From the NCBI RefSeq assembly GCF_000972385.1, contig NZ_JXTE01000026.1:1-64000 (forward strand): a stretch of DNA of 64,000 nucleotides. The letters are read 5' to 3'. Under the pieces are notes generated by a model. It ran no database searches. It worked only from the letters and a program-made list of their open reading frames with translations, and was not told the origin of the DNA. Shown piece after piece: positions 13,853-35,877 of the stretch (positions are counted from its first letter, which is position 1; each line of letters starts with the position of its first letter). The position numbers and the translations under genes are program-made. This stretch comes from Streptomyces sp. WM6386 (lineage in GTDB: Bacteria > Actinomycetota > Actinomycetes > Streptomycetales > Streptomycetaceae).

Positions 13853-13854
13853 CG

Positions 13855-15189
13855 CTACTTCGCCTGCGCGATGTCCGTGTCGATCTGCTTGGCCGCGGCG
13901 GCGAGGCCGGACTTGAGGTCCTTGGTCCTGCCGCTCTCGTACTCGTAGCCGAAGTTCTGGATCGTGGTGAGGTAGACGCCGCCGTTGAGGGAGGCGGGGC
14001 TGGTCGTGGAGTTCGGGTTCGCCGCGATCTCCAGGAACGTCTTGAAGCGCGGGTCGTACTTCAGCTTCGGGGACTTCAGGGCTGCCAGCGTGGAGGGCAC
14101 GTTGTGGATGGCGTTGGAGAAGTCGACCACCGCGTCCGTGTCCGTGGTGATGTACTTGACCAGCTCCCAGGCCGCGTTCTGCTTCTTGCTGGTGGCGGCG
14201 ATGCCGGTGATCGTGCCGGTGATGTAGCCCTTGCCGTACTGGTCGGCCTTCTCGTCGGGGACGGGCAGCGGGGCGACGCCGATCTCGAAGTCGGGCTTGG
14301 CCTCCAGGGCCATGCCCAGGCGCCATTCGCCGTCCAGCTGCATGGCCACCTGGCCGGTGTGGAAGGGGTGCTTGGGGCCCCATTCGTCACCGAGCTTGGC
14401 GCGGTACTTCTCCAGCTTCTGGTAGCCGCCGAGCTCGTCGACCAGCTTCTTCTGAAGGGTGAAGGACGAGGACACGGCCGGGTCCGTGGCGACCGTCGAC
14501 TTGCCGCTCTTGTCGAAGTACGTCGGGGAGAACTGGCCCATGTAGTGCTCGGTCGTGGTCTCCCAGCCGTGGTAGTTCGGCATGAAGCCGAGCTGCTTGT
14601 AGCTGTCGCCCTGAGTGATCGTCAGCTTCTTGGCGTCGGCCTCGAACTCGGACCACGTCTTGGGCGGACCGCTGATGCCCGCCTTCTCGAACGCGGTCTT
14701 GTTGTAGTAGAGGCCGTACGCGTCACCGAGCAGGGGTGCCGTGCAGCGGTTGCCCTCGAACTGGGTGTACTCGTTCATCGCCGTCGGGAACGTCTTGGCC
14801 GGGTCGATGCCGGACTTCTCGAAGTACGGGTTGAGGTCGATCAGGGCGCCGGAGGAGCAGAACTTGCCGACGGCGTTGGTGGTGAAGGACGAGATCACGT
14901 CGGGTGCCTTGGAACCGCCCGCGCGCAGCGCCTGGTTGATCTTGTCGTCGGTCATGTTGCCGACGACGTTGACGTGGATGTTGGGGTGCGCCTTCTCGAA
15001 GCCGGCGATCAGGGACTTGACCGCCTTCACCTCGGCGGGCGCGCTCCAGGCGTGCCAGAAGTTGAGGGTCGTCTCCTTCGAGGCGTCGTCGTCGGCGCCG
15101 GAGCTCGACTGGCCGGTACAGGCGGAGGTGGTGAGAAGGGCCGCGGAGGCGATCAGGGCAAAGGCCGTTATTCGGGCGCGCTTGGGCAT
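13855..15189 (-). CDS. csnE: Sugar-binding lipoprotein of ABC transporter
   Basis: 444-residue extracellular solute-binding protein. It has a type II signal peptide with lipobox TSAC, giving lipidation at Cys24, followed by an acidic linker. The family-1 sugar-binding fold includes TLNFWHAWS near residue 42, which is typical of oligosaccharide binders. It should sit on the outer face of the membrane and hand glucosamine oligomers to CsnF/CsnG. A 72-bp gap separates it from csnR upstream. The start ATG at 15187-15189 is preceded by GGGAG at a somewhat long spacing. Confidence 0.9.
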   Translation of the reverse strand: MPKRARITAFALIASAALLTTSACTGQSSSGADDDASKETTLNFWHAWSAPAEVKAVKSLIAGFEKAHPNIHVNVVGNMTDDKINQALRAGGSKAPDVISSFTTNAVGKFCSSGALIDLNPYFEKSGIDPAKTFPTAMNEYTQFEGNRCTAPLLGDAYGLYYNKTAFEKAGISGPPKTWSEFEADAKKLTITQGDSYKQLGFMPNYHGWETTTEHYMGQFSPTYFDKSGKSTVATDPAVSSSFTLQKKLVDELGGYQKLEKYRAKLGDEWGPKHPFHTGQVAMQLDGEWRLGMALEAKPDFEIGVAPLPVPDEKADQYGKGYITGTITGIAATSKKQNAAWELVKYITTDTDAVVDFSNAIHNVPSTLAALKSPKLKYDPRFKTFLEIAANPNSTTSPASLNGGVYLTTIQNFGYEYESGRTKDLKSGLAAAAKQIDTDIAQAK

Positions 15190-15261: not shown

Positions 15262-16455
15262 TCAGCGCGAGGTGTCGAAGACCTCGTCGCGGGTGGCCGC
15301 CAGCGCGCTCTCCAGCGCGCCGCGCAGCACGGGGTGTTCGGGTACGTCGCCGAGGACGAGCTTGGGCCTGGCCGCGGCCAGCTCCTCCATCTCGGACTGG
15401 ACGAGGGAACGCAGCACTTCGCCGCCGGAGGCGAGCGAGGCGCCGCTCAGGACCACGAGTTCGGGGTCGAGAACGGAGACGAGGGAGGCGAGACCGGTGG
15501 CGAGACGGGTTGCGTAGGTCTCCAACAGGTGGCGGTGACTTCGCTCTTCGGACTGGGCCGCCCGCTCTACGAGGGCGGCGGCGACCTCGGCGTAGGGGCC
15601 GCTGGGGATGCCGTCGATGCCGAGTTCGCGGGCGAGCTTCGGGATGGCCTGGGAGCCGGCGAGTTCCTGGTAGCCGCCGCTGTTGGCCTTGGTGACCTGC
15701 CGGACCAGGGGGGTGCCGGGCACGGGCAGGAAGCCGACCTCGCCGGCGCCGCCGGTCCAGCCGCGGTGCAGCCGGCCGCCGAGGACGAGGGCCGCGCCGA
15801 GACCGCCCTCGTTCCACAGCAGCACGAAGTCCTCGTGACCGCGGGCGGCACCGAGCCGCTGTTCGGCGACCGCGACGAGGTTGACGTCGTTCTCGTACTC
15901 CACCGGCATCGGCAGCGCGGCGGCGAGTTCGTCGAGCAGGGTCGGCGTGTGCCAGCCAGGGAGGTGGGAGGCGTAGCGCAGCCGGCCGGTGCCCGGGTCG
16001 AAGGCGCCGGGGGTGCCGATGACGAGGCGGTGGACGTCGGCGCGGGCCAGCCCCGCCGCCTTCACGGCGCCGTCGAGGGCGTCGGTGACCTGCTGGACGA
16101 CGGGCTGCGCGGGGCGTCTGCCGGGGGTGGGCAGTTCGTACGACCCCACCGTGCGGCCGGTGATGTCGGCGACGGCGGCGAGGATGCGTTCGGGGGTGAC
16201 GTCGAGTCCGGCGGCGTGTCCGGCGGCCGGATTGACCTCGTACAGCTGGGCGTTGGGACCGGGTCGCCCCTCGGTGGTGCCGGTGGCGAGGACCAGTCCC
16301 GCGGCTTCGAGGCGGGCCAGGAGCTGGGAGGCGGTCGGCTTGGAGAGGCCGGTGAGCTTGCCGATCCGGGTGCGGGACAGCGGGCCGTGCTCCAGGAGGA
16401 GGTCCAGTGCGGCGCGATCGTTCATGGCGCGCAGCGTGCTCGGGGTGCCGGCCAT
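15262..16455 (-). CDS. csnR: ROK-family transcriptional repressor
   Basis: 397 residues. An N-terminal winged helix-turn-helix (about 15-65, with SRTRIGKLTGLSKPTASQ) is fused to a ROK sugar-kinase-like domain. The usual ROK zinc motif (CxCGxxGCxE) is absent from the equivalent region near residue 225-250, so the effector domain is degenerate and probably senses without catalysing. It heads the csn operon and should repress it until amino-sugar oligomers or their products bind. A perfect TAGGAAGGTTTCCTA palindrome lies 54-68 bp before its start. I recall a very similar box for CsnR in S. lividans. The start is ATG at 16453-16455. Confidence 0.88.
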   Translation of the reverse strand: MAGTPSTLRAMNDRAALDLLLEHGPLSRTRIGKLTGLSKPTASQLLARLEAAGLVLATGTTEGRPGPNAQLYEVNPAAGHAAGLDVTPERILAAVADITGRTVGSYELPTPGRRPAQPVVQQVTDALDGAVKAAGLARADVHRLVIGTPGAFDPGTGRLRYASHLPGWHTPTLLDELAAALPMPVEYENDVNLVAVAEQRLGAARGHEDFVLLWNEGGLGAALVLGGRLHRGWTGGAGEVGFLPVPGTPLVRQVTKANSGGYQELAGSQAIPKLARELGIDGIPSGPYAEVAAALVERAAQSEERSHRHLLETYATRLATGLASLVSVLDPELVVLSGASLASGGEVLRSLVQSEMEELAAARPKLVLGDVPEHPVLRGALESALAATRDEVFDTSR

Positions 16456-16508
16456 GTGTACCCCTCTCCCGGGACTGTTCCGCAGCAGACTTTACGGAAG
16501 GCAACTGT

Positions 16509-16523
16509 TAGGAAGGTTTCCTA
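16509..16523. promoter_or_regulatory. CsnR/ROK operator
   Basis: TAGGAAGGTTTCCTA is a perfect inverted repeat (TAGGAA / TTCCTA around a 3-base centre), upstream of csnR and the whole operon. It resembles, from memory, the AGGAAA/TTTCCT box bound by CsnR at chitosanase genes. I see no second copy in the window. Confidence 0.75.
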
Positions 16524-16578
16524 TCGGATGCAGGGAACATAAGTCCCGGTCGTGGGGGAGTCAAGGGGGGTCGAACAA

Positions 16579-16620
16579 ACCGCCCCCGCAGGAAACGGAG
16601 TCGTTACCTGCGGGGGCGGT
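16579..16620 (-). terminator. Intrinsic terminator of the secreted-protein gene
   Basis: A perfect 14-bp GC-rich stem (16579-16592 with 16607-16620) encloses a 14-base loop. On the minus strand it is followed by GTTTGTT. It lies 20 bp past the stop codon of the gene at 16641-17474 and insulates the csn promoter. Confidence 0.85.
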
Positions 16621-16640
16621 CAGGGGCGGTGCGGGGGTGA

Positions 16641-17474
16641 CTACTGGACGTCGATGTAGTCGCCGGTGGCCTTCGCGGCGGCGGTCGTGGTGGTGCCCGC
16701 GAAGACGTAGCGGTAGTAGCCGTCCTTCGACGCCGTCACGGTCGACTTGAGAAGGCCGCCGGTCGAGGAGGTCGCCGTCTTGACGGTGCTGTAGGTGTCC
16801 GAGCCCTTGGCGCGGAACTGCAGGGTGGCCTTCTGGGAGACGTAGCCGGTGTAGCTGCCGGTCTCCCAGTTGGCGCGGGTCAGCTTGCCGCTGACCGTGA
16901 TGGTCCTGCCCTTCTTCACCGGCTCCGGCGAGGCGTTGGCGGTGAGCTTGGCGGCGCGCTGGACCTTGGCGGTGCCCTTGTTGCCCCAGGCCGCGAAGCC
17001 GTACTCGAAGCTGATCTTGTCGTCCGAGTCGTCCAGGTCGGAGTCGGTCTGGCCGTAGAAGCCGCCGACCTTCCAGGTGGTGGCGTCCGCGGCCTCGAAG
17101 AGGTCGTACGACGGGTCGACGTGGAGGGTGTCGGAGCAGGACTCCGTCACCGTGGTGTCCGTCGTCGCCGTGGTGGTGCAGGCCGGCGAGGCGTCGCTCT
17201 CGATCTCGTTGTCGAAGGACGCGAGCGAGCCGCGGTAGAGCAGGACGCCCGCCGCGTTGTTCTTGTAGTCGATCGTCAGGTCGGCGGGACGGGTCAGGGT
17301 GTACGTCACCGGGACCGTGACCGCGCTGGTGGTGCCCACGACGATCGTCTTGCCGTTGTTCACGACGACGTCCGCGAAGGCGAGGTCCGGCGTGGCGGCC
17401 TGGGCGGCGGGCACGGCCAGCGCGGACAGAGCCAGGGCACCGCAGACGACGGTGCCTATGGCGAGCTTTCTCAT
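16641..17474 (-). CDS. Secreted protein of unknown function
   Basis: 277 residues. The ATG at 17472-17474 has GGGGAA eight bases upstream, which is better than the in-frame GTG four codons earlier. A Sec signal peptide (MRKLAIGTVVCGALALSALAVPAAQA, cleaved near residue 27) is followed by a beta-rich exported region. This seems to be two immunoglobulin-like halves: about 30-165, with several Asp-rich turns, and about 175-277, with KKGRTITVSGKLTR resembling bacterial Ig-like/surface repeats. No catalytic motif is visible. It is a single gene with its own terminator. Confidence 0.75.
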   Translation of the reverse strand: MRKLAIGTVVCGALALSALAVPAAQAATPDLAFADVVVNNGKTIVVGTTSAVTVPVTYTLTRPADLTIDYKNNAAGVLLYRGSLASFDNEIESDASPACTTTATTDTTVTESCSDTLHVDPSYDLFEAADATTWKVGGFYGQTDSDLDDSDDKISFEYGFAAWGNKGTAKVQRAAKLTANASPEPVKKGRTITVSGKLTRANWETGSYTGYVSQKATLQFRAKGSDTYSTVKTATSSTGGLLKSTVTASKDGYYRYVFAGTTTTAAAKATGDYIDVQ

Positions 17475-17714
17475 GTGTTTCCCCACATTCAGGGCGGACC
17501 CCTGGGCGTTGCGCTCCAGAGCAAGGGCCCGCTGATGGCTTGAACCTAAGCGAGGGAGGGTGGTGTTGGGAATGCGGAGAACGTGTGAGCAAGATTAATT
17601 CCGGAGGCGTCACACCTTCATCACGATCCAGCTTTCCGCAGGTGAACGGGTGTCGCCTGGACGGCTTCCTGTACTTTCATCCGCCTGCGAACGTGAAAGT
17701 GGAGGGGGCGCGGT

Positions 17715-18308
17715 GTGAAGACCTCGGCGGTCCTGCTGTGTGCGGCCGTGTTCCTCGTGGCCGGGTGCCGGGTGGGCGGGAACGACTCGGCGGCGGTCAC
17801 GCGTACCCCGGCCGGTACGGCGTGCTCGGACGGGGAGATCCGGTGGGCCGGGGTGAGCGAGGAGCGCAGACTCATCGCGGTGTCCCGGCCGGTCGAGGTC
17901 GGCGAGAAGGACGGGAAGGTCCGGTTTTCTCCCGTTCGGGTGCGGGAGTTGGAGCCGAGGGTGGAGATGAGCGGCGAAGGGCCGTCGGCGGGGCGGCTGT
18001 TCGCGTCGCTCGGCAAGCGCCTGGGGTGGGAGGCGGACACCCTGGCCAGGCCGGGCAGGTCGTCCGCCGTCAGGGAGCGGGACGACGTCGCCGACTTCGA
18101 GGGCGGGGGCACGTTCGTCTTCGCCCGGGCCGTCCGGTCCGTCGAGGCGAGCTTCACCGCGGACTGCTCCGGTACGCCGGTCTACGGCAGTGTCTCGTCG
18201 TGGCACGGCAGCTCCGGGGCGTCGCTCGCGTGCGGCGTGGAGCCGTCCGTGGAGGGTGCGGACGAGCCGTGGATCGCGGAGGCCTACGAGTTGGGGTGCG
18301 GCTCATGA
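17715..18308 (+). CDS. Putative lipoprotein
   Basis: 197 residues starting with GTG at 17715, behind GGAGGG. The N-terminus is a lipoprotein signal with lipobox LVAGC (Cys18). The mature part has no family I recognise. It contains two well-separated cysteine pairs and a GGGTFVFARAVRSVEASFTADC segment. Its stop overlaps the start of the next gene (ATGA), so the two are probably made together and may form a membrane complex. Confidence 0.75.
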   Translation: MKTSAVLLCAAVFLVAGCRVGGNDSAAVTRTPAGTACSDGEIRWAGVSEERRLIAVSRPVEVGEKDGKVRFSPVRVRELEPRVEMSGEGPSAGRLFASLGKRLGWEADTLARPGRSSAVRERDDVADFEGGGTFVFARAVRSVEASFTADCSGTPVYGSVSSWHGSSGASLACGVEPSVEGADEPWIAEAYELGCGS

Positions 18309-24446: not shown

Positions 24447-27400
24447 ATGATGGCGAAAACCATGGGGTCCGAGGAATTGTCCCTGCCAGACATGCTGCGC
24501 GCGGCCGCGCTCACCCGGCCCGACCGGACCGCCGTCTCGTGCGGCACGCAGCGCCTGACCTTCCAGCAGCTCGGTGAACGCGCCGAGGTCCTGGCCGACC
24601 ATCTGTGTCGGCTCGGTGCGACGACGGACGAACCCGTCGGGATCTTCATGGATCCGTCCGTCGACCTCATGGCGAGCGTCTGGGGCGTCCTGTACTCGGG
24701 CGCTCCCTACCTGCCGCTGTCGCCGGAGTACCCGGACGAGCGCGTCCGCTACATGATCGCGGACTCCCGGACCAGGCTCATCCTCACCGACGAGTCCCTG
24801 GTCTCCCGGCTGGCCGCGCTCACTCCCGCGCACACGCGGATCGTCACCGTCGCCGGGGCACAGGCCTCCCGCGACGCCGTCGACGCCGACCACGGGGTCG
24901 TTCCCGCTGGCCCGGCTTCCGCGCGCGGCGGTGCCCTCGCGGGCCCACTGGACGCCGCGCACGGCGACACCCTCGCGTATGTCATCTACACCTCCGGGAG
25001 CACGGGCAACCCGAAGGGCATCGGCGTCGAACACCGCAGCATCGTCAGCCAGATGCGCTGGCTGGCCGGTGAACAGGGCCTGGACGAACGCCGGACGGTG
25101 CTGCAGAAGACCCCGCTGAGCTTCGACGCCGCCCAGTGGGAGATCCTCGCCCCGGCCTGCGGCAGCAGCGTGGTGATGAGTGAACGGGGCGTCTACGCCG
25201 ACCCCGGCGGGCTCCTCGACCTGATCCAGACGCACCGGGTGACCACGCTCCAGGGCGTGCCGACCCTGCTCCAGGCGCTCGTCGACTCCGGACGGCTGAC
25301 GCAGTGCACCTCGCTCACCCAGCTCTTCAGTGGCGGCGAGGCGCTCACCAAGAGCCTGGCGATCGAGCTGCTCGACGCGCTGCCGGACGTCGAACTGGTC
25401 AACCTCTACGGCCCGAGCGAGACCACGATCAACGCCTCGTCCCTCACCGTGGACCGCGAGACCGTCCAGCACGGACCCGACCACCTCTCCATCGGCCGGC
25501 CCGTGCACGGCATGAGCTTCCACATCCTCGACTCCGCCCGGCGGCCCGTGGCGCCCGGCGAGTCGGGTGAACTCCACATAGCCGGGCGGCAGCTCGCCCG
25601 CGGCTACCTCAACAACCCCGACATGACGGCCGAACGGTTCATCCCCAACCCGTTCGCCACCGACCCGGACTCCACGCGCCTCTACCGCACCGGCGACCTG
25701 ACCCGCTGGAACGACGACGGCACCGTGCAGTTCCTCGGCCGCACCGACAGCCAGGTCAAACTGCGCGGCTTCCGCGTGGAACTGGACGAGATCAAGGTGT
25801 CCATCGAGAAGCACGACTGGGTCAAGCGGGCCGCGGTCGTGGTCCGCGACGACACGAGAGTCGGCGCCAACCTCATCGCCTTCGTCGAACTCGATCCGCA
25901 CCGGGCCGCGGTCATGGACCAGGGCAACCACGGCGCCCACCACCAGTCCAAGCAGAGCAAACTCCAGCTCAAGGCCCAGCTCGCCGATCTGGGCGTCCGT
26001 CAGGAGTACGGCCTCCCGTTCATCGAGCTGCCCGGGCGGACCGCGACGGCCGAGCAGCGGCGCACGGTGTTCGCCCGCAAGACGTACCGCTTCTACGAGG
26101 GCGGCGACGTCACCCGGCAGGACCTCCTGCGCCTGCTCGCCCCCGCGACGCAGCAGGTGGCCGCGCCCCGGGACCCGGACACCCTCACCCTGACCGAACT
26201 CGGCACGCTGCTGCGCTGGTTCGGCCGGTTCACCAGCGGCGAGCGGCTGCTGTCCAAGTACGGCTACGCCTCACCCGGATCCCTGTACGCCACCCAGCTC
26301 TACCTGGAGCTGTCCGGCATCGCGGGCCTTGAGGCGGGCCACTACTACTACCACCCGGTCGAACACCGGCTCACGCTGATCGGCCCGGCCCCGGCCGGGG
26401 AGCCGAGGCTGCGGGCCCACTTCATCGGGCGCCGCTCGGCCATCGAGCCCGTCTACCGCAACAACATCCAGGAAGTCCTCCAGTTCGAAGCCGGTCACAT
26501 GGTCGGCCTCTTCGACCACGTCCTGCCCGCCTACGGACTGCGGATCTCCGCGCGCCCGGCGGAGCCGGCGGTCAAGGACGTCCTGCGCTGCCCGGACGAG
26601 GACTACTACCTGGCCTCGTACGAGATCCGCACGGCCGCGTCAGCGGCCGAGCCCACCGCGGTCGACCTGTATGTGCAGGCCAACCCGGGCCGTATCGCCG
26701 ATCTCGCCGACGGCCAGTACCGCTACGACGCCGGCGAACTGGTTCGGGTGTCCGACGAGTTGGTCCGCAAACAGGACGTCATCGCCATCAACCAGGAGGT
26801 CTACGCGCGTTCGAGCTTCGGGGTCAGCATGATCGGCGGCGCCGCCGAGGCGTGGCAGCGCTACGTCGACCTCGGCCGGGAGCTCCAGCGCCTTCAGATG
26901 AACGGTCTCGACCTGGGGCTGATGTCCTCCGGGTACAGCTCCGAGACCGGTAACCCGCTGCCCTCGGCCCGGCGTATCGCGGACCTCGTCGGCCTCGGCC
27001 CGGACACCGCGTCCTACTTCGCCGTCGGCGGCCGCATCAGCGCCCAGCAGCGGCTCAGCGAGGGCATGAAGGAGGACTCCGTGCACATGCGGGGTCCCGC
27101 AGAGATCATCAAGGACAACCTCGCCGCGGCCCTGCCGCCGTACATGGTGCCCAACCGGGTCACCGTCCTCGACGCCTTCCCGCTCACCCCCAACGGCAAG
27201 GTCGACCACCAGGCCCTGCGCGAGCTGGACAAGGCCGCCGTCGACGACACCGAGGCACCGGTCGTCCCGCCGCGCACCCCCACCGAGGAGGCCGTCGCCG
27301 CACTGTGGGCGAAGGTGCTGAAGCAGGAGCGGGTCTCCATCCGCGACAACTTCTTCGCCCTGGGCGGCCATTCGCTGACCGCGGTCTCCCTGGTCAACCG

Positions 27401-28547
27401 GATCAACCGGGAGCTGGGTGCCGCCCTGCCGCTCCAGGTGCTGTTCGACGCGCCGACCATCGCCGAACTGGCCCGGCGCGTCGACCGCGCACCCGCCACC
27501 GGGGCCTCCCGGCTGGTGCGGCTGCGCGCCGCGGACGGCGGCCGGCCGGTCTTCTGCTGGCCCGGTCTCGGCGGCTACCCGATGAGCCTGCGGCTGCTGG
27601 CCGGGCGCCTCGACCTGGACCGGCCGTTCCTCGGCGTCCAGTCCTACGGCATCAACCAGGACGAGACCCCGTACGAGACGTTCGCCGAGATGGTCGCCAA
27701 GGACCTCGAACTGGTCCGGCAGGTCCAGCCGACCGGCCCGTACACCCTGTGGGGCTACTCCTTCGGGGCCCGGCTCGCCTTCGAGGCCGCCCACCAGCTG
27801 GAGCTGGCCGGCGAGCAGGTCGACGAGGTGATCCTCATCGCGCCCGGCAAACCACCCGTGGAATTCCTCGGCGACGCGGCCGGCCGGACCTCGACCGGCT
27901 TCGACGACTCCACGTTCGTCTCCATCCTGTATTCGGTGTTCGCCGGAAACCTGGAGAAGTCGGCGGTCGAGGAATGCCTTGCCGCGACACACGACGAGGA
28001 ATCCTTCATCGCCTTCGTCAGCGACCGGTTCGAGCACCTGGACCGTGAATGGGTCTGCAGGATCGTCGGCGTGGTGCGGCGGACATTCCTCTTCGAGTAC
28101 GACCCCCGCGAACTCGCCGAGCGCACCATCGCCGCACCGGTCACCGTGTTCCGGGCCACCGGCGACCAGGAATCGTTCATCGACTCCGGTGAAGCGCTTA
28201 CCACCACACCCCCCGCGCTCCACCGACTCGAGGCCGACCACTACGAGTTGCTGCGCGCGAACGGAATAGACGAACTCGTCACCGCCATAAAGACCGCACG
28301 ACTCACCAGAAAGGTCACCGGAGTGCCGCACGTCAGCATCAAGCATTTCCCCAACAACCTCGAGGCCGAGCGGGTCACCGCCCTGGTCGACGCGATCACC
28401 AGCGCCGTCCAGGCCGCCTTCGCGGTCGACGAGGGCGCGGTCTCGATCGCACTCGAACCGGTGGCCCAGGACGTCTGGAACGAGCGGGTGTACGTCCCGG
28501 AGATCGAGAACGGCGCCGGAAACCTGGTCAAGGCCCCCAACTACTGA
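24447..28547 (+). CDS. Indigoidine-synthetase-like NRPS (A-Ox-PCP-TE) with C-terminal tautomerase domain
   Basis: 1366 residues, single module, no condensation domain. Adenylation core motif YTSGSTGNPKG is at about 181-191. By hand alignment to GrsA the specificity code reads DAWQFGLINK, which I recognise as the glutamine code of indigoidine synthetases. After motif A8 (about 431-446) the A domain is interrupted by a nitroreductase-like FMN oxidase (about 570-880), then resumes with NGKVD (Lys918). PCP: GGHS, Ser976. Thioesterase: GYSFG, Ser1105. Residues 1293-1366 form a PptA-type 4-oxalocrotonate tautomerase domain beginning PHVSIKHFP. BpsA/IndC end after the TE and are about 80 residues shorter. 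It should oxidise and cyclise glutamine to an aminopyridinedione-type product. The start is ATG 24447 with GAGG adjacent; ATG 24450 is possible. Confidence 0.9.
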   Translation: MMAKTMGSEELSLPDMLRAAALTRPDRTAVSCGTQRLTFQQLGERAEVLADHLCRLGATTDEPVGIFMDPSVDLMASVWGVLYSGAPYLPLSPEYPDERVRYMIADSRTRLILTDESLVSRLAALTPAHTRIVTVAGAQASRDAVDADHGVVPAGPASARGGALAGPLDAAHGDTLAYVIYTSGSTGNPKGIGVEHRSIVSQMRWLAGEQGLDERRTVLQKTPLSFDAAQWEILAPACGSSVVMSERGVYADPGGLLDLIQTHRVTTLQGVPTLLQALVDSGRLTQCTSLTQLFSGGEALTKSLAIELLDALPDVELVNLYGPSETTINASSLTVDRETVQHGPDHLSIGRPVHGMSFHILDSARRPVAPGESGELHIAGRQLARGYLNNPDMTAERFIPNPFATDPDSTRLYRTGDLTRWNDDGTVQFLGRTDSQVKLRGFRVELDEIKVSIEKHDWVKRAAVVVRDDTRVGANLIAFVELDPHRAAVMDQGNHGAHHQSKQSKLQLKAQLADLGVRQEYGLPFIELPGRTATAEQRRTVFARKTYRFYEGGDVTRQDLLRLLAPATQQVAAPRDPDTLTLTELGTLLRWFGRFTSGERLLSKYGYASPGSLYATQLYLELSGIAGLEAGHYYYHPVEHRLTLIGPAPAGEPRLRAHFIGRRSAIEPVYRNNIQEVLQFEAGHMVGLFDHVLPAYGLRISARPAEPAVKDVLRCPDEDYYLASYEIRTAASAAEPTAVDLYVQANPGRIADLADGQYRYDAGELVRVSDELVRKQDVIAINQEVYARSSFGVSMIGGAAEAWQRYVDLGRELQRLQMNGLDLGLMSSGYSSETGNPLPSARRIADLVGLGPDTASYFAVGGRISAQQRLSEGMKEDSVHMRGPAEIIKDNLAAALPPYMVPNRVTVLDAFPLTPNGKVDHQALRELDKAAVDDTEAPVVPPRTPTEEAVAALWAKVLKQERVSIRDNFFALGGHSLTAVSLVNRINRELGAALPLQVLFDAPTIAELARRVDRAPATGASRLVRLRAADGGRPVFCWPGLGGYPMSLRLLAGRLDLDRPFLGVQSYGINQDETPYETFAEMVAKDLELVRQVQPTGPYTLWGYSFGARLAFEAAHQLELAGEQVDEVILIAPGKPPVEFLGDAAGRTSTGFDDSTFVSILYSVFAGNLEKSAVEECLAATHDEESFIAFVSDRFEHLDREWVCRIVGVVRRTFLFEYDPRELAERTIAAPVTVFRATGDQESFIDSGEALTTTPPALHRLEADHYELLRANGIDELVTAIKTARLTRKVTGVPHVSIKHFPNNLEAERVTALVDAITSAVQAAFAVDEGAVSIALEPVAQDVWNERVYVPEIENGAGNLVKAPNY
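28323..28547 (+). other. Tautomerase domain with possible internal start
   Basis: Within the NRPS frame, GTG at 28323-28325 is followed directly by a proline codon (Pro1294). It is preceded by AGAAAGG at 28308-28314, which matches seven bases of the anti-Shine-Dalgarno complement, eight bases away. Tautomerases of this superfamily use an N-terminal proline as catalytic base. An independent 74-residue product would expose that proline after methionine removal, whereas the fused form cannot. Internal initiation is inference. Confidence 0.4.
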
Positions 28548-28607
28548 GCCCGGCGCCCGAATCCGACGGTGCCCACCCCACCAGGACATGAACCACGGAG
28601 GACCGCG

Positions 28608-29216
28608 ATGCGCACAGTGATCACCAGGATGAGGGAGGACCTCTCCGTGATCGTCGCGCGAGACCCGTCGATCCGCACGCGCGCGGAGGCCCTGCTGCAC
28701 CCCGCGCTGCCGGCGCTGTGGACCCACCGGGTGGCGCACGTCCTGTTCACCCGTGGGCACCGTCACAGCGCCCGGCTCCTCGCCTACCTGGCGCGCGCCT
28801 GCACCGGTGGCATCGAGATCCACCCGGGCGCGCGGCTCGGCCGGCGTGTCTTCATCGACCACGGGGCCGCCGTGGTCATCGGGGAGACCGCCGAGGTCGG
28901 CGACGACGTCACGATCTTCCACCAGGTCACGCTCGGCGCCGTCGGCTGGTGGAAGGACGGACGGCGCGAACCCGGCGCCCGCCGCCACCCCGTCGTCGGC
29001 GACCGCGTGGTCCTCGGCACCAACGCGATCGTGCTCGGCCCGGTCACCGTCGGCCACGACGCGCTGATCGGCGCCGGGGCGCTCGTCCTGGGCGATGTGC
29101 CCCCGAAGGCCCGCGTGATGGCCCCCGCCGCCGAGATCGTGTCCCGGCCCTCGGCCGCGGACCGCGAGGACGCGGACCAGCTGCTGCGCGCCCTGGCCAC
29201 CTCCGGGTGCTGGTGA
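28608..29216 (+). CDS. cysE: Serine O-acetyltransferase
   Basis: 202 residues from ATG 28608 with GGAGG six bases upstream. It has the short helical N-terminus and left-handed beta-helix of hexapeptide repeats typical of actinobacterial CysE: GGIEIHPGARLGRRVFIDHG near 68-87 (catalytic His/Asp zone), VVIGETAEVGDDVTIFHQVTLG, then HPVVGDRVVLGTNAIVLGPVTVG. It acetylates serine with acetyl-CoA to give O-acetylserine. In this cluster it probably supplies that activated serine to the cysteine-synthase domain of the next gene, a dedicated route outside general sulfur metabolism. Confidence 0.92.
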   Translation: MRTVITRMREDLSVIVARDPSIRTRAEALLHPALPALWTHRVAHVLFTRGHRHSARLLAYLARACTGGIEIHPGARLGRRVFIDHGAAVVIGETAEVGDDVTIFHQVTLGAVGWWKDGRREPGARRHPVVGDRVVLGTNAIVLGPVTVGHDALIGAGALVLGDVPPKARVMAPAAEIVSRPSAADREDADQLLRALATSGCW

Positions 29217-29313
29217 CGCCCAGGCCACCGGCCCCACCCCATTCGTCGCAGTACCCCGCAACGTTCACCGCATATCGACCCGACCACGTGTCGGCACGCC
29301 ATCGGAGGCACAG

Positions 29314-31539
29314 ATGATTCACGTCGGTGTACTGGAGAGCAACCTCTCCGGTTCCGGCTTCGAGGGCCTGCAGATCATCAAGGAACTCGACTGCCGGGTC
29401 ACCTTCTTCACCCGCGACCTGGACCGGTACCTCGAAGTGCCGGGCGGTCCGGCCTACTTCGAGAAGTACGTCGACGAGATCGTCCACTGCGAGACGAACG
29501 TCCTCGGGGAACTCCTGCCGCATGTGCACCGGGCCGGCGCCGAGCACCCCTTCGACGCCTTCCTGACCCTGGCCGAGTACGACGTGGTCGTGGCCGCCGA
29601 GGTCGCCGTCCTCCTCGGGCTCCCCACCGTCAGCGTCGACGGCGTCGCCACCGCCCGCAACAAGGCGCTGATGCGCCGGCGCTGCGCCGAACTCGGCGTC
29701 GCGATACCGGCGTTCCGCACCGTGCAGACGCCCGCCGAGGCGGCGGCCGCCGCGGCCGAGATCGGCCTGCCCTGCGTGGTCAAGCCGGCCGACGAGACCT
29801 CCAGCGCCGATGTCCGGCTGGTGGAGACCGCGGAACAGGCCGCCGAGCACGTCGAGCTGATCCGCTCCCGGGTGGAGAACACCCGCGGCCAGAGCCGCTA
29901 CCACGAGCTGATGGTCGAGGAGTACCTGAGCGGCCCCGAGGTCAGCGTGGAGGTCCTCGCCGACGGCGACCGCTACGAGGTCCTCGGGGTCACCGACAAG
30001 TCGGTCATCGGCCAGGGCTACTTCGTCGAACTGGCCCACAGCTTCCCCTCCGGCCTGCCCGACAAGACGGTCCGCGCCATCGGCGACCTGGCCGTGGAGG
30101 CGCTGCGCGCCTGCGGGTTCGACCTGGGCATGGCCCACGTCGAGATCAAGGTCACCGACTCCGGCCCCAAGCTCATCGAGATCAACCCCCGGCCCGCCGG
30201 CGGCAAGATCACCTACCTGGTCGACCGCGCCCTCGGCATCAAGTCACTGGAGCTGGTGGCCCAGCAGTACCTCGGCCGGCCGCTGCCGGCCCGGGTCGTG
30301 CCCGAGCACCCCGTCGCCGGCGCCGCCATCCGCTACCTGGTCGCCCGGCCGGGCCGGGTGGTGTCGGTCTCCGGCCAGGAACGCGCCGCCGCGCTGCCCG
30401 GCGTGGAGGAGGTCGTCGTCAAGCCGAAGCCCGGCGCCGTGCTGCGCGAGCCGCGCCGCAACGGCGACCGCGCCGGCCATGTCCTCGTGATCGCCGAGAC
30501 CGCCCAGCTCGCGGCGCGGACCGCCGAGGCCGCCGTCGAGGAGATCGACATCCGGACCGAGCCGGTCACCGCCCGCCCGGTCGCCGACTCCCTCGTCGAT
30601 CTGATCGGCCGCACCCCGCTGCTGCGGCTCCCCGTGGACCGCGTCCTGGACGGGGTCCCGGCCGAGACCGAGGTCCTGGCGAAGCTGGAGCTGTTCAACC
30701 CCTGGTCCAGCAGCAAGGACCGGGCCGCACTGTCGATGCTGCGCGGCGCCGAGGAGCGCGGACTGCTCACCCCCGGCAACGGCACCGTGATCGAGGCGAC
30801 CTCCGGAAACACCGGCATCTCGCTGGCCGCCCTCGCCGCCGCCCGCGGCTACCGCTGCGTCATCGTGCTGCCCGACAACGCGACCCAGGAGCGCGTCGCC
30901 ATGCTCCAGTCGCTCGGCGCCGAGGTGGTGCGCACCCCGCACACCGGCGGCTACCAGGCGGCCGTCGACAAGGCCGAGGAACTCCACCACCGGACCCCCG
31001 GCTCCTGGTTCTGCCGCCAGCACGACAATCCCGACAACACCCGGGCGCACTACGAGTCGACCGGCCCGGAGATCTGGGCCGACGCCGAGGGTCGTATCGA
31101 CGTCTTCGTCTGCGGAGTGGGCACCGGCGGCACCCTCAGCGGCGCGGGCCGCTACCTGCTGGAGCGCAACCCCGACGTACGGATCGTGGCCGTCGAGCCG
31201 GCCGGCTCGCCGCTGCTGTCCGGCGGCGAGCCCGGCACGCACACCATCCCCGGCTTCAACGGCGGCTTCATCGCACCGACCACGGAACGCGAACTCATCG
31301 ACGAGGTGATCGCGGTCGCCGACGCCGACGCCCTCGACACCACCCGGCGGCTCGCCGTGCACGCCGGCCTCACCGTCGGCGTCTCCTCCGGCGCGGTCGT
31401 CCACGCCTCGGGTGTCGTGGCCGCCCGTCCCGAGAACCGGGGCAAGCGCATCGTGACCCTGCTCCCCGACACCGGCGAGCGCTACCTGAGCCTGCTCAGC
31501 CGCGTCGCCGAGGAGCAGGCGGCCGGGGGCACCCGGTGA
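29314..31539 (+). CDS. ATP-grasp ligase fused to a cysteine-synthase-family PLP enzyme
   Basis: 741 residues from ATG 29314 (GGAGG five bases upstream). Residues 1-420 are an ATP-grasp carboxylate-amine ligase: CVVKPAD (ATP lysine), MVEEYLSGPEVSVE and the metal-binding ending LIEINPRPAGGK. Residues about 423-741 are a complete beta-family PLP enzyme like O-acetylserine sulfhydrylase: PLP lysine in SSSKDRA (Lys468), substrate loop ATSGNTG and phosphate cradle GVGTGGTLSG. The PLP half should replace the acetyl group of O-acetylserine with a nucleophile (sulfide, amine, or an organic group). The ATP-grasp half should then form an amide with that amino acid. I do not know a characterised protein with this fusion. 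Confidence 0.9.
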   Translation: MIHVGVLESNLSGSGFEGLQIIKELDCRVTFFTRDLDRYLEVPGGPAYFEKYVDEIVHCETNVLGELLPHVHRAGAEHPFDAFLTLAEYDVVVAAEVAVLLGLPTVSVDGVATARNKALMRRRCAELGVAIPAFRTVQTPAEAAAAAAEIGLPCVVKPADETSSADVRLVETAEQAAEHVELIRSRVENTRGQSRYHELMVEEYLSGPEVSVEVLADGDRYEVLGVTDKSVIGQGYFVELAHSFPSGLPDKTVRAIGDLAVEALRACGFDLGMAHVEIKVTDSGPKLIEINPRPAGGKITYLVDRALGIKSLELVAQQYLGRPLPARVVPEHPVAGAAIRYLVARPGRVVSVSGQERAAALPGVEEVVVKPKPGAVLREPRRNGDRAGHVLVIAETAQLAARTAEAAVEEIDIRTEPVTARPVADSLVDLIGRTPLLRLPVDRVLDGVPAETEVLAKLELFNPWSSSKDRAALSMLRGAEERGLLTPGNGTVIEATSGNTGISLAALAAARGYRCVIVLPDNATQERVAMLQSLGAEVVRTPHTGGYQAAVDKAEELHHRTPGSWFCRQHDNPDNTRAHYESTGPEIWADAEGRIDVFVCGVGTGGTLSGAGRYLLERNPDVRIVAVEPAGSPLLSGGEPGTHTIPGFNGGFIAPTTERELIDEVIAVADADALDTTRRLAVHAGLTVGVSSGAVVHASGVVAARPENRGKRIVTLLPDTGERYLSLLSRVAEEQAAGGTR

Positions 31540-32804
31540 CGGCGCCCGTGGACGACAGGCCCCGCCTGCTGATGGTGATGCCGTACCGCCAGTTCGTCCG
31601 CAAGGCACAGGCCGAGGGGTTCTGGGTCGGCGCGATCTGGGACCCGCGGCTGGAGTCGCCGGAGTACCTGGACGACGTACGCGCACTGGCGGACGTGTTC
31701 GTCACGGCCGACTTCGGGGACGAGGAGCTGCTGCGCCGCACCATCCGTGAGGTGGCCGAGGAGCACCGCGCCTCGGTGATCTACCACATCGGCCGCGAGG
31801 AGACGATGGCCGCCGCCTACGAGGTGGCCGAGGAACTGCACATCGAGGTCAACCCGGCCGAGGCGGTGCGGCTCCTCACCGACAAGCACGCCATGCGGGA
31901 CCTGCTCGCCGCACGCGGACTGTCCCCGGTGTCCTTCGAGGCGGTGGCGACCCGGCGCGAGGTACCGGACGCGGTCCGGCGCATCGGCCGCCCGGCCGTG
32001 GTCAAGCCGACCGCACTGGCCGGCAGCCGGGGCGTGTTCCTGTGGCAGGAGGAGGCGGATCTCGCGGTCTGGACAGCGCTCGTCGAGCAGTACGGCTACG
32101 ACGGTCCGTTCCTGGTCGAGGAGTATCTGCGCGGTCCCGAGTACAGCGTGGAGACACTGAGCCGGGACGGTGAGCACCGGATCGTCGGGATCACCGAGAA
32201 GCTGCTCGGCGCGCCGCCGCTGTTCGTGGAGGTGGGGCACGTCCATCCGGCGCCGCTGCCCCCGGAGCGCCGGCGGGCCGTCGAGGACCTGACGACCGAA
32301 CTGCTCACCGCGTGCGGCTACCGGTTCGGTCCCGCGCACACCGAGGTGATCTGGACCGAGGCCGGTCCCCGCGTCGTCGAGTCGCAGGCCCGGCTCGGCG
32401 GGGACCGGATCCCACGCCTCATCGAGCTGGCCACCGGCCTCGACATCGAGCAGGCGATCTTCGCCGGCCTGGCGGGCACCCCGGCCGGGCCCGCCGCGGC
32501 GACCGCGACGGCGGTCGTGCGGTTCTTCGCCTTCCCGCCCGGCCACGTAGACGAGATCCGCGGCCTCGACACGGTCGCCGGGCTCGGGTACGTCGACGAG
32601 CTGAACCTCCGGCCGAGCCCCGGCGACACGGTGGCGGAGGTCCGCGACTCCAAGAGCCGGCACGGACACGTCATCGTCGCCGGCGCCACCGCCGAGCAGG
32701 CCCGGGACCGGGTCGCGGAGGTGCTCGCCGCCATCGAGCTCGTCATCGACGGAACGCCCGTACGCGCGGACGGCCGGGCCGGAGTGCTCGGGACGCCCGT
32801 ATGA
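31536..32804 (+). CDS. ATP-grasp ligase, second of three
   Basis: 422 residues from GTG 31536, overlapping the previous stop (GTGA). ATP-grasp signatures in order: pre-ATP-grasp half ending near residue 110, VVKPTALAGSRG (ATP-binding lysine and glycine loop), FLVEEYLRGPEYSVE, and metal-binding VVESQARLGGDRIPRLIE, where the usual E-x-N becomes ESQ but Arg and Gly-Gly are kept as in BacD/YwfE-type amino-acid ligases. It should couple an amino acid carboxylate to an amine with ATP cleavage to ADP. The substrate is unknown, but the cluster makes amide-linked products likely. Confidence 0.88.
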   Translation: MTAPVDDRPRLLMVMPYRQFVRKAQAEGFWVGAIWDPRLESPEYLDDVRALADVFVTADFGDEELLRRTIREVAEEHRASVIYHIGREETMAAAYEVAEELHIEVNPAEAVRLLTDKHAMRDLLAARGLSPVSFEAVATRREVPDAVRRIGRPAVVKPTALAGSRGVFLWQEEADLAVWTALVEQYGYDGPFLVEEYLRGPEYSVETLSRDGEHRIVGITEKLLGAPPLFVEVGHVHPAPLPPERRRAVEDLTTELLTACGYRFGPAHTEVIWTEAGPRVVESQARLGGDRIPRLIELATGLDIEQAIFAGLAGTPAGPAAATATAVVRFFAFPPGHVDEIRGLDTVAGLGYVDELNLRPSPGDTVAEVRDSKSRHGHVIVAGATAEQARDRVAEVLAAIELVIDGTPVRADGRAGVLGTPV

Positions 32805-32836
32805 CTCTCCCCCCACCCCGCAGGAAGGCAGTGCCC

Positions 32837-32872
32837 ATGCAGTCCGTACCCGCACTCAGGAGCTCGTCATGA
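32837..32872 (+). CDS. Possible 11-residue leader or substrate peptide ORF
   Basis: ATG 32837 starts an 11-codon frame (MQSVPALRSSS) whose TGA overlaps the ATG of the third ATP-grasp gene. AGGAAGG lies upstream, nine bases from this ATG (GCAGTGCCC between them). It may only be a translational-coupling device, or a substrate peptide; it is too short to judge by coding statistics. Confidence 0.3.
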   Translation: MQSVPALRSSS

Positions 32873-34128
32873 CCGCCCCCGCCAGCGACGCCCAGGTGGT
32901 GTTCATCGGCTTCAACATGGCCTACCTGCACGCGATCGAGGGCAACGTCCCGAGCGGGTCCGTCGTGGTGATCGAGGAACCCGACATCCTTCGCAAGCGG
33001 GACCTGGCAGGCGCCGCGGGACGCTTCGACTGCGTGGACCGCATCGTGCCGGCCAACTACCACCAGTCGACCGAGGCCCTCGACCTGGCGGCCGAACTGA
33101 CGGCCGTGCGCCCCGTGGCCGCGGTGGTCCCGGGCCTGGAGTACGCGGTGCCCGCGGCGGCCGCGCTGGCCGAGAAGCTCGGGCTGCCCGGCGCGACCGA
33201 ACAGGCCGCGCAGGCGCTGCGGGACAAGGTCCGGCTGCGCGAGGTCTCCGGCGCCGCCGGTGTCCGCAACCCGCGCTGGCGCGAGGTGTTCGGGCCCGAG
33301 GACATCCTCGAGTTCGCGGGCGACGGCCCGGTCGTGGTCAAGCCGGCGAACCGGCAGGCCAGCGTCGGCGTACAGCTGCTGGACTCGGTCGACGCCGAGA
33401 GCGCGGCGCAGGCCTGGGAGCGGACCTCCTCCGCGACCGAGCGGGTGTCGGTGCCCGACCGGGAGCTGGCGTGGCGGTACCTGGCCGAAGAACGCCTTCA
33501 GGGGCCCGAGTTCAGCGTCGAGGCGCTGGTGCAGCGGGGCGAGATCGTCTTCCAGAACGTCACGGCCAAGACCGTGATCCCAGGGCCCTACCCGGTCGAG
33601 CTCGGCCATCTGCTGCCCGCTCCGCTCGACGAGGACACGCAGGCCGCGTTCACCACGGCCATGCGGGCGCTGGTCGCCGCCACCGGCTATCAGACCGGCA
33701 TCCTGCACGCCGAGTGGATCCTCACCGAGTCCGGTCCGACGCTGGTCGAATGCGCCGGCCGCTGCCCCGGCGACCATCTGATCGACCTCATCGACCTGGC
33801 CTACGGCACGACGATCAGGCTGACCCTGATCGACCTGCTGGCCGGACGTCCGGTCACGCTGCCCCAGGTGTCGGAGCAGACCTCGGCGATCCGGTTCCTG
33901 GCCGCCGAGCCGGGCACCGTCACAGAGGTCTCCGGCGTGGACGTGGCCCGGGACCTGCCCGGCGTCGAGGTCGTGGAAGTGGGCGTCGGGACCGGCGACG
34001 AGGTCCGGCCGTGGGCGTCCTCCTGGGACCGCGCAGGCCATGTCATCGCCACCGGGCCGGACGCGGACACCACACGCCGACGCGTGCTGGACGCGGACGC
34101 GGCGGTCCGTATCGCCACCACCGGCTGA
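32869..34128 (+). CDS. ATP-grasp ligase, third of three
   Basis: 419 residues from ATG 32869 (AGGAG five bases upstream). It contains VVVKPANRQASVG (ATP lysine), RLQGPEFSVEALV and the metal segment LVECAGRCPGDHLIDLI, which deviates from the usual E-x-N-x-R (here ECAGR with CPGD). It is related to the preceding ligase in length and order of motifs but clearly diverged, so the two probably use different substrates. A C-terminal domain of about 110 residues follows the catalytic fold in each. The product is likely the last amide bond of the cluster's metabolite. Confidence 0.87.
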   Translation: MTAPASDAQVVFIGFNMAYLHAIEGNVPSGSVVVIEEPDILRKRDLAGAAGRFDCVDRIVPANYHQSTEALDLAAELTAVRPVAAVVPGLEYAVPAAAALAEKLGLPGATEQAAQALRDKVRLREVSGAAGVRNPRWREVFGPEDILEFAGDGPVVVKPANRQASVGVQLLDSVDAESAAQAWERTSSATERVSVPDRELAWRYLAEERLQGPEFSVEALVQRGEIVFQNVTAKTVIPGPYPVELGHLLPAPLDEDTQAAFTTAMRALVAATGYQTGILHAEWILTESGPTLVECAGRCPGDHLIDLIDLAYGTTIRLTLIDLLAGRPVTLPQVSEQTSAIRFLAAEPGTVTEVSGVDVARDLPGVEVVEVGVGTGDEVRPWASSWDRAGHVIATGPDADTTRRRVLDADAAVRIATTG

Positions 34129-34178
34129 GTCCGCGGCACCGCCGACCGAGTCCGTATCACCACTGATTGAGGAAGCAC

Positions 34179-35450
34179 ATGTCCGACCTCTGGCAGCGCG
34201 TCCGCGGCTGGCGCGGGTCCGTCCCGGGAGGGACGGCCGGCATCCGGCTGGCCGTGCTGACGTCGATCGACGCCGTCGGCACCGGCGCCTTTCTGGCCGT
34301 CTCCGTGCCCTTCATCACCCGGTCCGTCGGCCTGTCGGAGGGGCAGCTCGGACTCGGTCTGACCGTGTCCGCCGCCATCGCCCTGGCCACGGCGATCCCG
34401 ATCGGCGTCCTCGCCGACCGGATCGGCCCCAAGAAGGTCCTGGTCTGGCTGAGCGTGTGGCGCTGCGCCTGGTTCGTGGCGTACCCGTTCGTCCAGAACC
34501 TGTGGCAGTTCCTCACCGTGGTGTGCCTGCTCGGCCTGGTCGACAAGGCGTCCGCGCCGATGTCACAGGCCCTGGTCGGCCAGGTGACGAAGGCCGAGGA
34601 CCGGGTCAGGGCCGTCGCGATCCTGCGGTCGCTGCGCAACGTCGGCTTCACCGTCGGCGCCCTGCTGGGCGGCATCGGGCTGCTCATCGACAACCGGGCG
34701 GGCTACGCGGCGATCCTGCTGCTCAACGCCGCCTCGTTCGCCGTGCTCGCGATGCTGGCCGCCCGGCTGCCGATCCTCAGCGCGCCGGCGAAGAGCCTGC
34801 GCCGACGGTTCTCGGTGAGCGTGCTGCGCGATGTGTCGTTCCTGTCGTTCACGGGGATCAACGCCGTGCTCACCATGCACATGACCCTGCTGAGCATCGG
34901 CATCCCGCTGTGGATCGTCGGGCACACCGACGTGCCGTCCGCGGTGATCGCCCCGCTGGTCGCCGTCAACACCGTGCTCGCGGTCGCCCTCCAGGTGCGG
35001 GCCAGCCGCGACACGGACACCATGGCCGGCGTGGCACGCGCCCTGACGCGGGCGGGGCTCTCCCTCGCGCTGTGCTGTGTGCTGCTCGTCGCGGCACCGA
35101 AGCTGCCGGTCGTCCTGGCCGTCGGCGTGCTGCTGCTGGCCATGATCGCGCTGACCGGCGGTGAGCTGTTCCAGTCCGCCGGCGGTTGGGGCGGCTCCTA
35201 TCTGCTGGCGGCGCCCCAGCAGGAGGGCGTCTATCTGTCGGTCTTCTGGCTCGGCGTGGCCGTCCAGCAGATCGCGGCGCCGATCCTGGTCAGCCTGGTC
35301 GTCACGACCGGCACCACGGGCTGGGTCGTCCTGGCCGCCCTGTTCGCCGTCTGCGGTCTGGCGGCACCGCCCCTGTGCCGGTGGGCGCAGAAACGGGCGG
35401 ACAGCAGGCCGCAGCCGGAGCCCGAGCCGACGCCGGCCGAGGCGGTATAG
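34179..35450 (+). CDS. MFS transporter, probable exporter of the cluster product
   Basis: 423 residues from ATG 34179, with TTGAGGAAG upstream. It has about twelve transmembrane helices. The major facilitator loop 2-3 motif is recognisable as GVLADRIGPKKVLVWLS near residue 75, and a conserved Arg/Gly-rich segment (LRSLRNVGFTVGALLGG) lies in helix 5. It belongs with drug/peptide exporters and closes the cluster on the plus strand. Export of the product and self-protection are the likely roles. The cytoplasmic C-terminus is Pro/Glu-rich. Confidence 0.9.
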   Translation: MSDLWQRVRGWRGSVPGGTAGIRLAVLTSIDAVGTGAFLAVSVPFITRSVGLSEGQLGLGLTVSAAIALATAIPIGVLADRIGPKKVLVWLSVWRCAWFVAYPFVQNLWQFLTVVCLLGLVDKASAPMSQALVGQVTKAEDRVRAVAILRSLRNVGFTVGALLGGIGLLIDNRAGYAAILLLNAASFAVLAMLAARLPILSAPAKSLRRRFSVSVLRDVSFLSFTGINAVLTMHMTLLSIGIPLWIVGHTDVPSAVIAPLVAVNTVLAVALQVRASRDTDTMAGVARALTRAGLSLALCCVLLVAAPKLPVVLAVGVLLLAMIALTGGELFQSAGGWGGSYLLAAPQQEGVYLSVFWLGVAVQQIAAPILVSLVVTTGTTGWVVLAALFAVCGLAAPPLCRWAQKRADSRPQPEPEPTPAEAV

Positions 35451-35471
35451 CCATAGCGCTCCGCGGATCGA

Positions 35472-35497
35472 GGCCCGGCGGTCGCCCCCGCCGGGCC
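35472..35497 (+). terminator. Terminator of the biosynthetic cluster
   Basis: A perfect 10-bp GC stem (GGCCCGGCGG with CCGCCGGGCC, six-base loop) starts 22 bp past the MFS stop. It separates the cluster from the small peptide/malQ unit. Confidence 0.75.
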
Positions 35498-35646
35498 CGG
35501 TCGTGTCGTGGCCGCAGCGGGATCGGGACGTACGCAACAGAATGTGAGGAGATGCACGTTGTAGCCATTCGTACGTCTGCCACGGCGCCCACTGGGTAGG
35601 GCTGCGATAACCCGCAAGGTCGCCGTACTCGACAAGGAGGCCCCTC

Positions 35647-35877
35647 GTGGTCGCTCCCGCACAACCCCGCTCCAAACCCGTGGCGCAGCCGTCGTCCCTC
35701 GAACCCGAGCCGCACTTCTGCGTGTTCAGCGCGGAGGGCGCCTGCGCCGAGATCCCGCTGACCAGTGAGGCGCCGCTGCCCGACGCGGAGCCCCTCACCA
35801 GCGAGCCGCCACTCGCCGAAGCCGCACACCTGACCAGCGAGTCGGCGGTCTTCGAGCCGGACCTCGCGAGGCTGTAG
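35647..35877 (+). CDS. Small repeat-containing peptide upstream of malQ
   Basis: 76 residues from GTG 35647 with an excellent ribosome site (AAGGAGG, six-base spacing). The first 35 residues are Pro/Ser-rich with two cysteines (Cys25, Cys33). The rest holds LTSE at residues 38-41, 50-53 and 62-65, an exact 12-residue period, each followed by acidic residues (LPDAE, LAEA, VFEPD). The encoding DNA is a 36-bp degenerate tandem repeat. Its TAG touches the malQ ATG, so the genes are coupled. I do not recognise the family. It could be a regulator of malQ, a structural peptide, or a precursor of a modified peptide. Confidence 0.65.
   Translation: MVAPAQPRSKPVAQPSSLEPEPHFCVFSAEGACAEIPLTSEAPLPDAEPLTSEPPLAEAAHLTSESAVFEPDLARL

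Follow-up and report, generated by a model that had tools for sequence, protein, structure and literature searches.

We describe a six-gene cluster of Streptomyces sp. WM6386 that lies within positions 1 to 64,000 of contig NZ_JXTE01000026.1 (assembly GCF_000972385.1). This 64,000-nucleotide stretch is called the window, and the host genome comprises 9,215,882 bases in 856 contigs. Judged from sequence, the cluster may be an orphan natural-product cluster in which a CysK-type enzyme joins the ring made by a non-ribosomal peptide synthetase (NRPS) to alanine, giving one joint product, a reading to which we assign a probability of about 0.42. The most likely product would be a beta-(aminopyridinedionyl)alanine capped by L-amino-acid ligases. 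If true, indigoidine-type chemistry, known for pigments and C-nucleosides, would reach amino acids and peptides as well, and a CysK-family enzyme would work with a ring as its nucleophile. The clusters form a bounded class with named carriers, hence it is directly testable.

The features of the cluster are as follows (A, adenylation; Ox, oxidation; T, thiolation; TE, thioesterase; LAL, L-amino acid ligase; PLP, pyridoxal phosphate; AG1 to AG3, the three ATP-grasp domains).

24447-35450, + strand: six-gene cluster (NRPS, cysE, ATP-grasp/PALP fusion, two ATP-grasp genes, MFS)
24447-28547, + strand: NRPS, A-Ox-T-TE-tautomerase, 1366 aa (Pfam AMP-binding, PP-binding, thioesterase; clade); active-site residues from a comparison of 44 NRPSs: A code DAWQFGLINK, T Ser976, TE Ser1105
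28308-28325, + strand: predicted internal start, AGAAAGG at 28308-28314 and GTG at 28323-28325 directly before the Pro1 codon (conservation, anti-Shine-Dalgarno pairing)
28326-28544, + strand: PptA/4-OT-like tautomerase domain, Pro1 to Tyr73, NRPS residues 1294-1366 (profile, NCBIfam)
28569-29216, + strand: serine O-acetyltransferase of the CysE/EpsC family, 215 aa, C-terminus -SGCW (NCBIfam; tail in relatives)
29314-31539, + strand: fusion, 741 aa, of a LAL-type ATP-grasp (AG1, about residues 1-416) and a CysK-type PLP domain (about 423-728) (Pfam, NCBIfam, CysK tree)
31536-32804, + strand: AG2, LAL-type ATP-grasp with LAL_C2 (Pfam; solved LALs BL00235 and BacD; tree)
32869-34128, + strand: AG3, LAL-type ATP-grasp with LAL_C2 (Pfam; tree)
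34167-35450, + strand: MFS transporter, probable exporter, TTG start as called (Pfam; position conserved in relatives)

An initial annotation, made from the letters alone, had placed these six genes on one strand, and Pfam and NCBIfam matches agree with it: the genes are all on the + strand, all have open frames in the window, and no regulator gene is among them. The O-acetylserine/PLP module, the ATP-grasp ligases and the exporter that it named are likewise recovered as a CysE-family protein with a CysK-type PLP domain, as LAL-type proteins above Pfam cut-offs, and as an MFS gene conserved in place. The AG2 gene start overlaps the fusion gene end by 4 bases. The cysE gene has a GTG start as called; because similarity in relatives begins only at residues 3-14, the true start may lie downstream. 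The cluster had also been called unrecognised, and no published account of it was found in a library of open-access papers, judged by titles and the starts of abstracts; subscription papers and MIBiG fall outside that scope.

A rare gene set kept in order

A contig scan with the fusion protein returned 22 loci, seven of which (L020-L026) were partial at 29-41% and were dropped. The remaining 15 (L005-L019) matched over the full length at 75-97%; they come from 13 Streptomyces, 'Actinobacteria bacterium OV320' and Phytohabitans suffuscus. The order NRPS-cysE-AG/CysK-AG2-AG3-MFS was kept in 14 of the 15, the contig of L009 ending after AG2, and genome G052 added another complete ordered set, so that all 15 relatives with an intact right flank carry it. 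Left flanks mostly differ between relatives. Because gene order is kept although the left flanks mostly differ, the linkage is more than chance and, as judged by gene order, the six genes are one conserved unit (type A), as the initial annotation had supposed. The nearest named relative is Streptomyces canus (97% identity for the fusion, 94% for the NRPS), and named carriers also include S. galbus and S. achromogenes. In L007, an OrfB/IS605-type transposase gene stands between AG2 and AG3 on the opposite strand (13526-14734).

The unit is rare. A full-length fusion was present in 6 of 246 sampled genomes of the genus, our own included, four of them being, by contig coordinates, the genomes of L011, L013, L017 and L018; at E <= 1e-140 the fusion occurred in 2 of 394 genomes of the class, namely our own and one other of the genus.

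The NRPS and its C-terminal tautomerase

An oxidising glutamine NRPS had been proposed at the left end of the cluster, and the enzyme does keep the catalytic and specificity residues of indigoidine synthetases, matching its IndA-linked relatives in the 44-row comparison; the tautomerase at its C-terminus had been overlooked. The T, Ox and TE serines were identical in all 44 rows, the TE histidine was lost only in the shortened L011 row, and the ten-residue A code showed single substitutions in a few rows, all outside type A. By its code, the A domain would be specific for Gln. IdgS is described in passages of PMC10989907 as cyclising L-Gln to 3-aminopiperidine-2,6-dione, with oxidation afterwards, and in passages of PMC8724604 the tautomerase domain of minimycin synthesis readies the ring for C-glycosylation. 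Because of these two findings, the cluster NRPS would be expected, by analogy, to give the same product as IdgS-type NRPSs.

In the tree of the 44 NRPSs, type A formed one branch with support 100, five CysK-linked NRPSs (type C, below) formed another with support 100, and types A, B and C grouped with one IndA-linked row at 88. A search for the Ox domain was positive in 31 of 242 genus genomes, at 34 places, of which six are type A. We inspected the surroundings of all 28 others (L070 and 27 more). A CysK of the same subfamily as the fusion's was linked at six of these, in G056 (L107), G221 (L070), G080, G092, G142 and G158; in the last four it lies about 13-14 kb from the Ox-NRPS, with shared genes in between. 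A seventh candidate, G023 (about 11 kb apart), is probably linked by chance, since its NRPS falls among the IndA-linked ones, and was set aside. The gene family that holds IndA, one member of which was tested as PF04227, was present at 8 of the 28 places. The initial annotation had noted the absence of indA, and the six cluster proteins do lack an IndA (PF04227) domain, the sole homologue in the genome being on another contig, C19. As to indB, the Pfam domains of the six genes are others. It had also raised conservation of the NRPS apart from the ligase genes: inside the type A clade this does not occur, although the wider NRPS family is found without them.

The tautomerase domain was recognised by a ten-sequence profile that matched E. 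coli YdcE (1gyj) at 2.6e-17 over the full length with Pro1 aligned; the domain alone matched NCBIfam PptA at 1.2e-17, with a score of 64.2, below the cut-off of 83. Its likeness to PptA (YdcE) includes Pro1, and it differs in being the last in-frame part of an NRPS gene, behind a predicted internal start. Tautomerases of the 4-oxalocrotonate type (4-OT) use an N-terminal proline, and methionine is removed before proline. The codon preceding Pro1 is a start codon in all 17 type A genes (15 GTG, 2 ATG), and is GTG or ATG in the four other fused genes as well (L107, L114, L117 and L118). AGAAAGG, GGAAAGG or AGGAAGG stands 8 bases upstream in 16 of the 17, and L016 has a purine-rich site further upstream instead. 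Because the start codon before Pro1 is conserved and is accompanied by a Shine-Dalgarno-like site, the NRPS gene probably yields a free tautomerase through translation from this predicted nested start. Such a start would reconcile fusion to the NRPS with a working catalytic proline, which is necessarily N-terminal.

The site was also compared with the rest of the gene in 16 genes, L011 being omitted as its NRPS match is split over two frames and L147 being added. Only start codons were found in 10 of 1307 codon columns. Among those ten, the column before Pro1 alone combined them with anti-Shine-Dalgarno pairing of -7.5 kcal/mol or lower in all 16 genes (mean -8.1); the next-best column had a mean of -6.0 kcal/mol and paired strongly in 6 of 16. 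The rare Arg codon AGA, which makes up 32 of the 1857 Arg codons there, lies at the putative Shine-Dalgarno site in 11 of the 16 genes. In control counts that included L011, about 6% of other in-frame ATG or GTG codons paired equally well, and rare codons recurred in at least 8 genes at 7 of 1349 columns, five of which lie at the 5' end or close to it. Pairing alone is thus not striking and rare codons are not unique to the site; the case for a nested start is that start codon and pairing are kept together.

Many of the Ox-NRPS loci examined have a tautomerase, either as part of the NRPS or next to it; in L109, L110, L111, L115, L121 and L127 it reads as a separate small gene adjoining the NRPS. 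Both fused and separate forms are known from indigoidine clusters, in passages of PMC3992020 and PMC12224551 that mention no internal start, and among the papers listed by our literature search none reported an internal start in such NRPSs.

CysE, CysK and the ligases in this and related clusters

A fusion of ATP-grasp and cysteine synthase had been read from the window alone, and its frame is open over 738-778 codons, with GGAGG before the same start, in all 16 genes compared; judging by this frame, the fusion is real. Five shorter database entries (P0031 and four others) begin inside the frame, losing all or part of the ATP-grasp domain. They look like start mispredictions that hide the fusion in annotations. 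One further entry, P0053, an apparent ATP-grasp/CysK/CysE fusion, reads out of frame between and after its domains and was not used as fusion evidence.

The CysK domain shares its family, the PLP lysine motif and the TSGNTG loop with O-acetylserine sulfhydrylase (OASS) and O-ureidoserine synthase. Only one of seven intended housekeeping controls, L142, proved OASS-like; the other six carry another motif set, which we take to be that of cystathionine beta-synthases, so the comparison rests on L142 and solved structures. Against L142, the domain and most of its clade have LPDNATxER for MPESMSVER and IPG[FL]NGGF for IQGLGAGF, and QH replaces the OASS QQF in 34 of 38 rows. Type A has in addition the W of FNPWSSSKDR (15 of 16) and GFNGGF (all 16). 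The domain is, by alignment, a departure from the OASS row at motifs that presumably line the nucleophile side of the pocket, and it falls in a separate clade. In the CysK tree, types A and C each form one branch, in agreement with the NRPS tree.

The cysE product passed the EpsC model (166.1 against 150) and fell short of the cysE model (170.9 against 210.65). It ends in -GCW in all 16 type A genes checked; L107 and 11 genes of related clusters (L059-L065, L069, L071, L072 and L076) end in -SW or -CW, and L058, L067 and L068 (type C) and L074 lack such an end. In classical CysE the last residue is Ile, and it docks into CysK. Because a terminal Trp takes its place, a dedicated CysE/CysK pair is plausible.

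AG1, AG2 and AG3 all scored above the Pfam cut-offs for ATP-grasp_4 and LAL_C2, matched the solved LALs BL00235 and BacD by sequence and fell far below the BacD and DdaF model cut-offs. By these family assignments, all three are of L-amino-acid-ligase type; unlike BacD, BL00235 and DdaF, three occur in one cluster and one is fused to CysK. In a 53-row ligase tree, the AG2 clade includes 11 sequences from other CysE/CysK loci and the AG3 clade four of type C. AG1 has the single sequence L073 as its sole partner.

The same CysK subfamily is also found close to related NRPSs in clusters of a different layout. In type B (G056, L107), an NRPS-tautomerase is accompanied by EamA, cysE, cysK and cupin; because no ATP-grasp match was found within the 20 kb of L107, CysK is the only joining enzyme seen there. 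Type C (L057, L058, L067 and L068 with L109-L112, in G080, G092, G142 and G158; L070 in G221) has an Ox-NRPS near CysK, several ATP-grasps and tandem ATP-grasp proteins. At least the G142 locus adds an anthranilate/aminodeoxychorismate synthase-like fusion, a prephenate dehydrogenase-like gene and an AMP ligase, and we would guess at p-aminophenylalanine-type chemistry in type C.

Two further arrangements were observed. Type D (L062, L064, L069 and L071) has cysE, cysK and cupin in genomes with no Ox-NRPS match, and might use another route to an imide-type nucleophile; L064 also has genes for EamA, a second cupin, asparagine synthase, PrpF and acyl-CoA dehydrogenase. Type E (L059, L060, L061 and L076) is a compact set of cysE, cysK, MFS, an AG2-like ligase and an FMN-reductase gene (tested in L076), for which we know of no product.

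Proposed pathway, alternatives and the right flank

Extrapolating from characterised relatives, the NRPS would load L-Gln, release 3-aminoglutarimide and oxidise it to an aminopyridinedione; the tautomerase, freed through the internal start with an N-terminal Pro1, would set the nucleophilic tautomer; and CysE would make O-acetylserine. With less certainty, the CysK domain would form aminoacrylate, which the pyridinedione ring would attack through carbon or nitrogen to give beta-(aminopyridinedionyl)-L-alanine, a bond modelled on the ring-ribose joining of minimycin synthesis. From there, the three LAL-type domains could couple the amino acid with at least one other residue, and the product could leave the cell through the MFS protein. 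In the relatives, the cupin described below might make one further change, which this strain may have lost.

We favour ring joining by CysK because type B shows no ATP-grasp match in its 20 kb, because a tautomerase is present and because the NRPS and CysK clades match. The conserved NRPS residues, the departure of CysK from the OASS motifs and the LAL type of the ligases also speak for the reading. Several points weigh against it. The same CysK subfamily, mostly with the same motifs, occurs in genomes with no Ox-NRPS match (e.g. G084, G109, G209 and G012), and the motif form found there, not that of type A, recurs in types B and C; for both reasons the nucleophile of CysK need not be the NRPS product. 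The NRPS match of L011 falls into two frames, as do the AG3 and the MFS match of L016. Genuine frameshifts or sequencing errors could be responsible, so that intact genes cannot be claimed for all copies. A fuller form, in which CysK would make a new aza-aromatic amino acid with the help of a nested-start tautomerase, and this amino acid would be the core common to a wider class of NRPS/CysK/ligase clusters (types A, B and C), is on the unlikely side.

Two separate building blocks, as the initial annotation had it, are a quite possible alternative: CysE and CysK would make a beta-substituted alanine from an unrelated small nucleophile, the NRPS an aminopyridinedione or aminoglutarimide, and the ATP-grasps would join them as amides. 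Some genomes with no Ox-NRPS match do have loci that combine CysE/CysK with AG2-type ligases, and three ligase domains fit several amide bonds, but type B has NRPS, CysE and CysK with no ATP-grasp match in its 20 kb, and the amine of aminopyridinedione is weakly basic and the compound dimerises readily to indigoidine.

Compatible with ring joining, although unlikely, is that the window copy has ceased to be productive, or stops at a precursor, through loss of a gene. The six genes given by the initial annotation stand, and what it overlooked is a cupin gene (150 aa) that comes after the MFS gene in every one of the 15 relatives whose right flank is intact (14 named and G052), and its absence here. 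Deaminase and luciferase-like genes come next, on the opposite strand, in all of these but Phytohabitans (14 of 15). None of the three is in the window, and the best cupin match in the genome has only 30% identity. The break is located as follows.

35429-35511, no strand: departure from L005, which the window matches up to 35429 and again from 35511 (blastn, tblastn)

Between the matching parts, L005 has the cupin, deaminase and luciferase-like genes (16085-18263), so that about 2.2 kb is missing relative to the nearest relative. Against an unproductive copy, the six remaining genes are open, and an assembly error could lie behind the absence. The cupin itself keeps H53, H55, E60 and H94 in seven of seven aligned sequences, and among solved structures it matches quercetin 2,3-dioxygenase best (4e-11). 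Since cupins of 40-45% identity occur near CysK in L062, L064, L069 and L071, and also in L107, the combination CysE-CysK-cupin recurs. The deaminase and luciferase-like genes were not counted as cluster core because the genome itself (G000) has a paralogous pair (63% and 48%) on contig C112 (12386-13533). In the right flank, several relatives also have in common a second MFS gene and one for a solute-binding protein.

It is improbable that CysE and CysK merely supply the ligases with cysteine or another sulfur- or nitrogen-bearing alanine, such as 2,3-diaminopropionate. The PALP domain does pass NCBIfam cysKM (344.7 against 344.15), but it misses the cysK cut-off (336 against 350.95), is far below SbnA (221 against 350) and stands apart from the OASS row, and Pfam finds no SbnB-like gene in the cluster.

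An ordinary indigoidine or minimycin cluster with unrelated neighbours is the least credible explanation: the A-Ox-T-TE architecture is that of IdgS, BpsA, IndC and MinA, the A code and catalytic residues are those of IndA-linked relatives, and a fused or adjacent tautomerase also appears in passages of PMC3992020, PMC12224551 and PMC8724604, whereas here the NRPS clade is separate, IndA is replaced by CysE, the AG/CysK fusion, two ATP-grasps and MFS, the relatives add a cupin, and the neighbours are conserved with the NRPS despite differing left flanks.

One further feature lies 3' of the MFS gene.

35472-35497, + strand: hairpin, arms 35472-35481 and 35488-35497 (folding, sequence)

The cluster had been described as ended by this hairpin. 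The hairpin exists, but its 60-nt stretch is no more stably folded than shuffled sequences, of which 37 in 200 did as well (z -1.0), and no T run follows it; evidence for a terminator role is weak. Beyond it, directly upstream of a 4-alpha-glucanotransferase gene, a small open reading frame (35647-35877, 76 aa) without a Pfam match has a repeated LTSE-like motif and is 93% conserved in L005.

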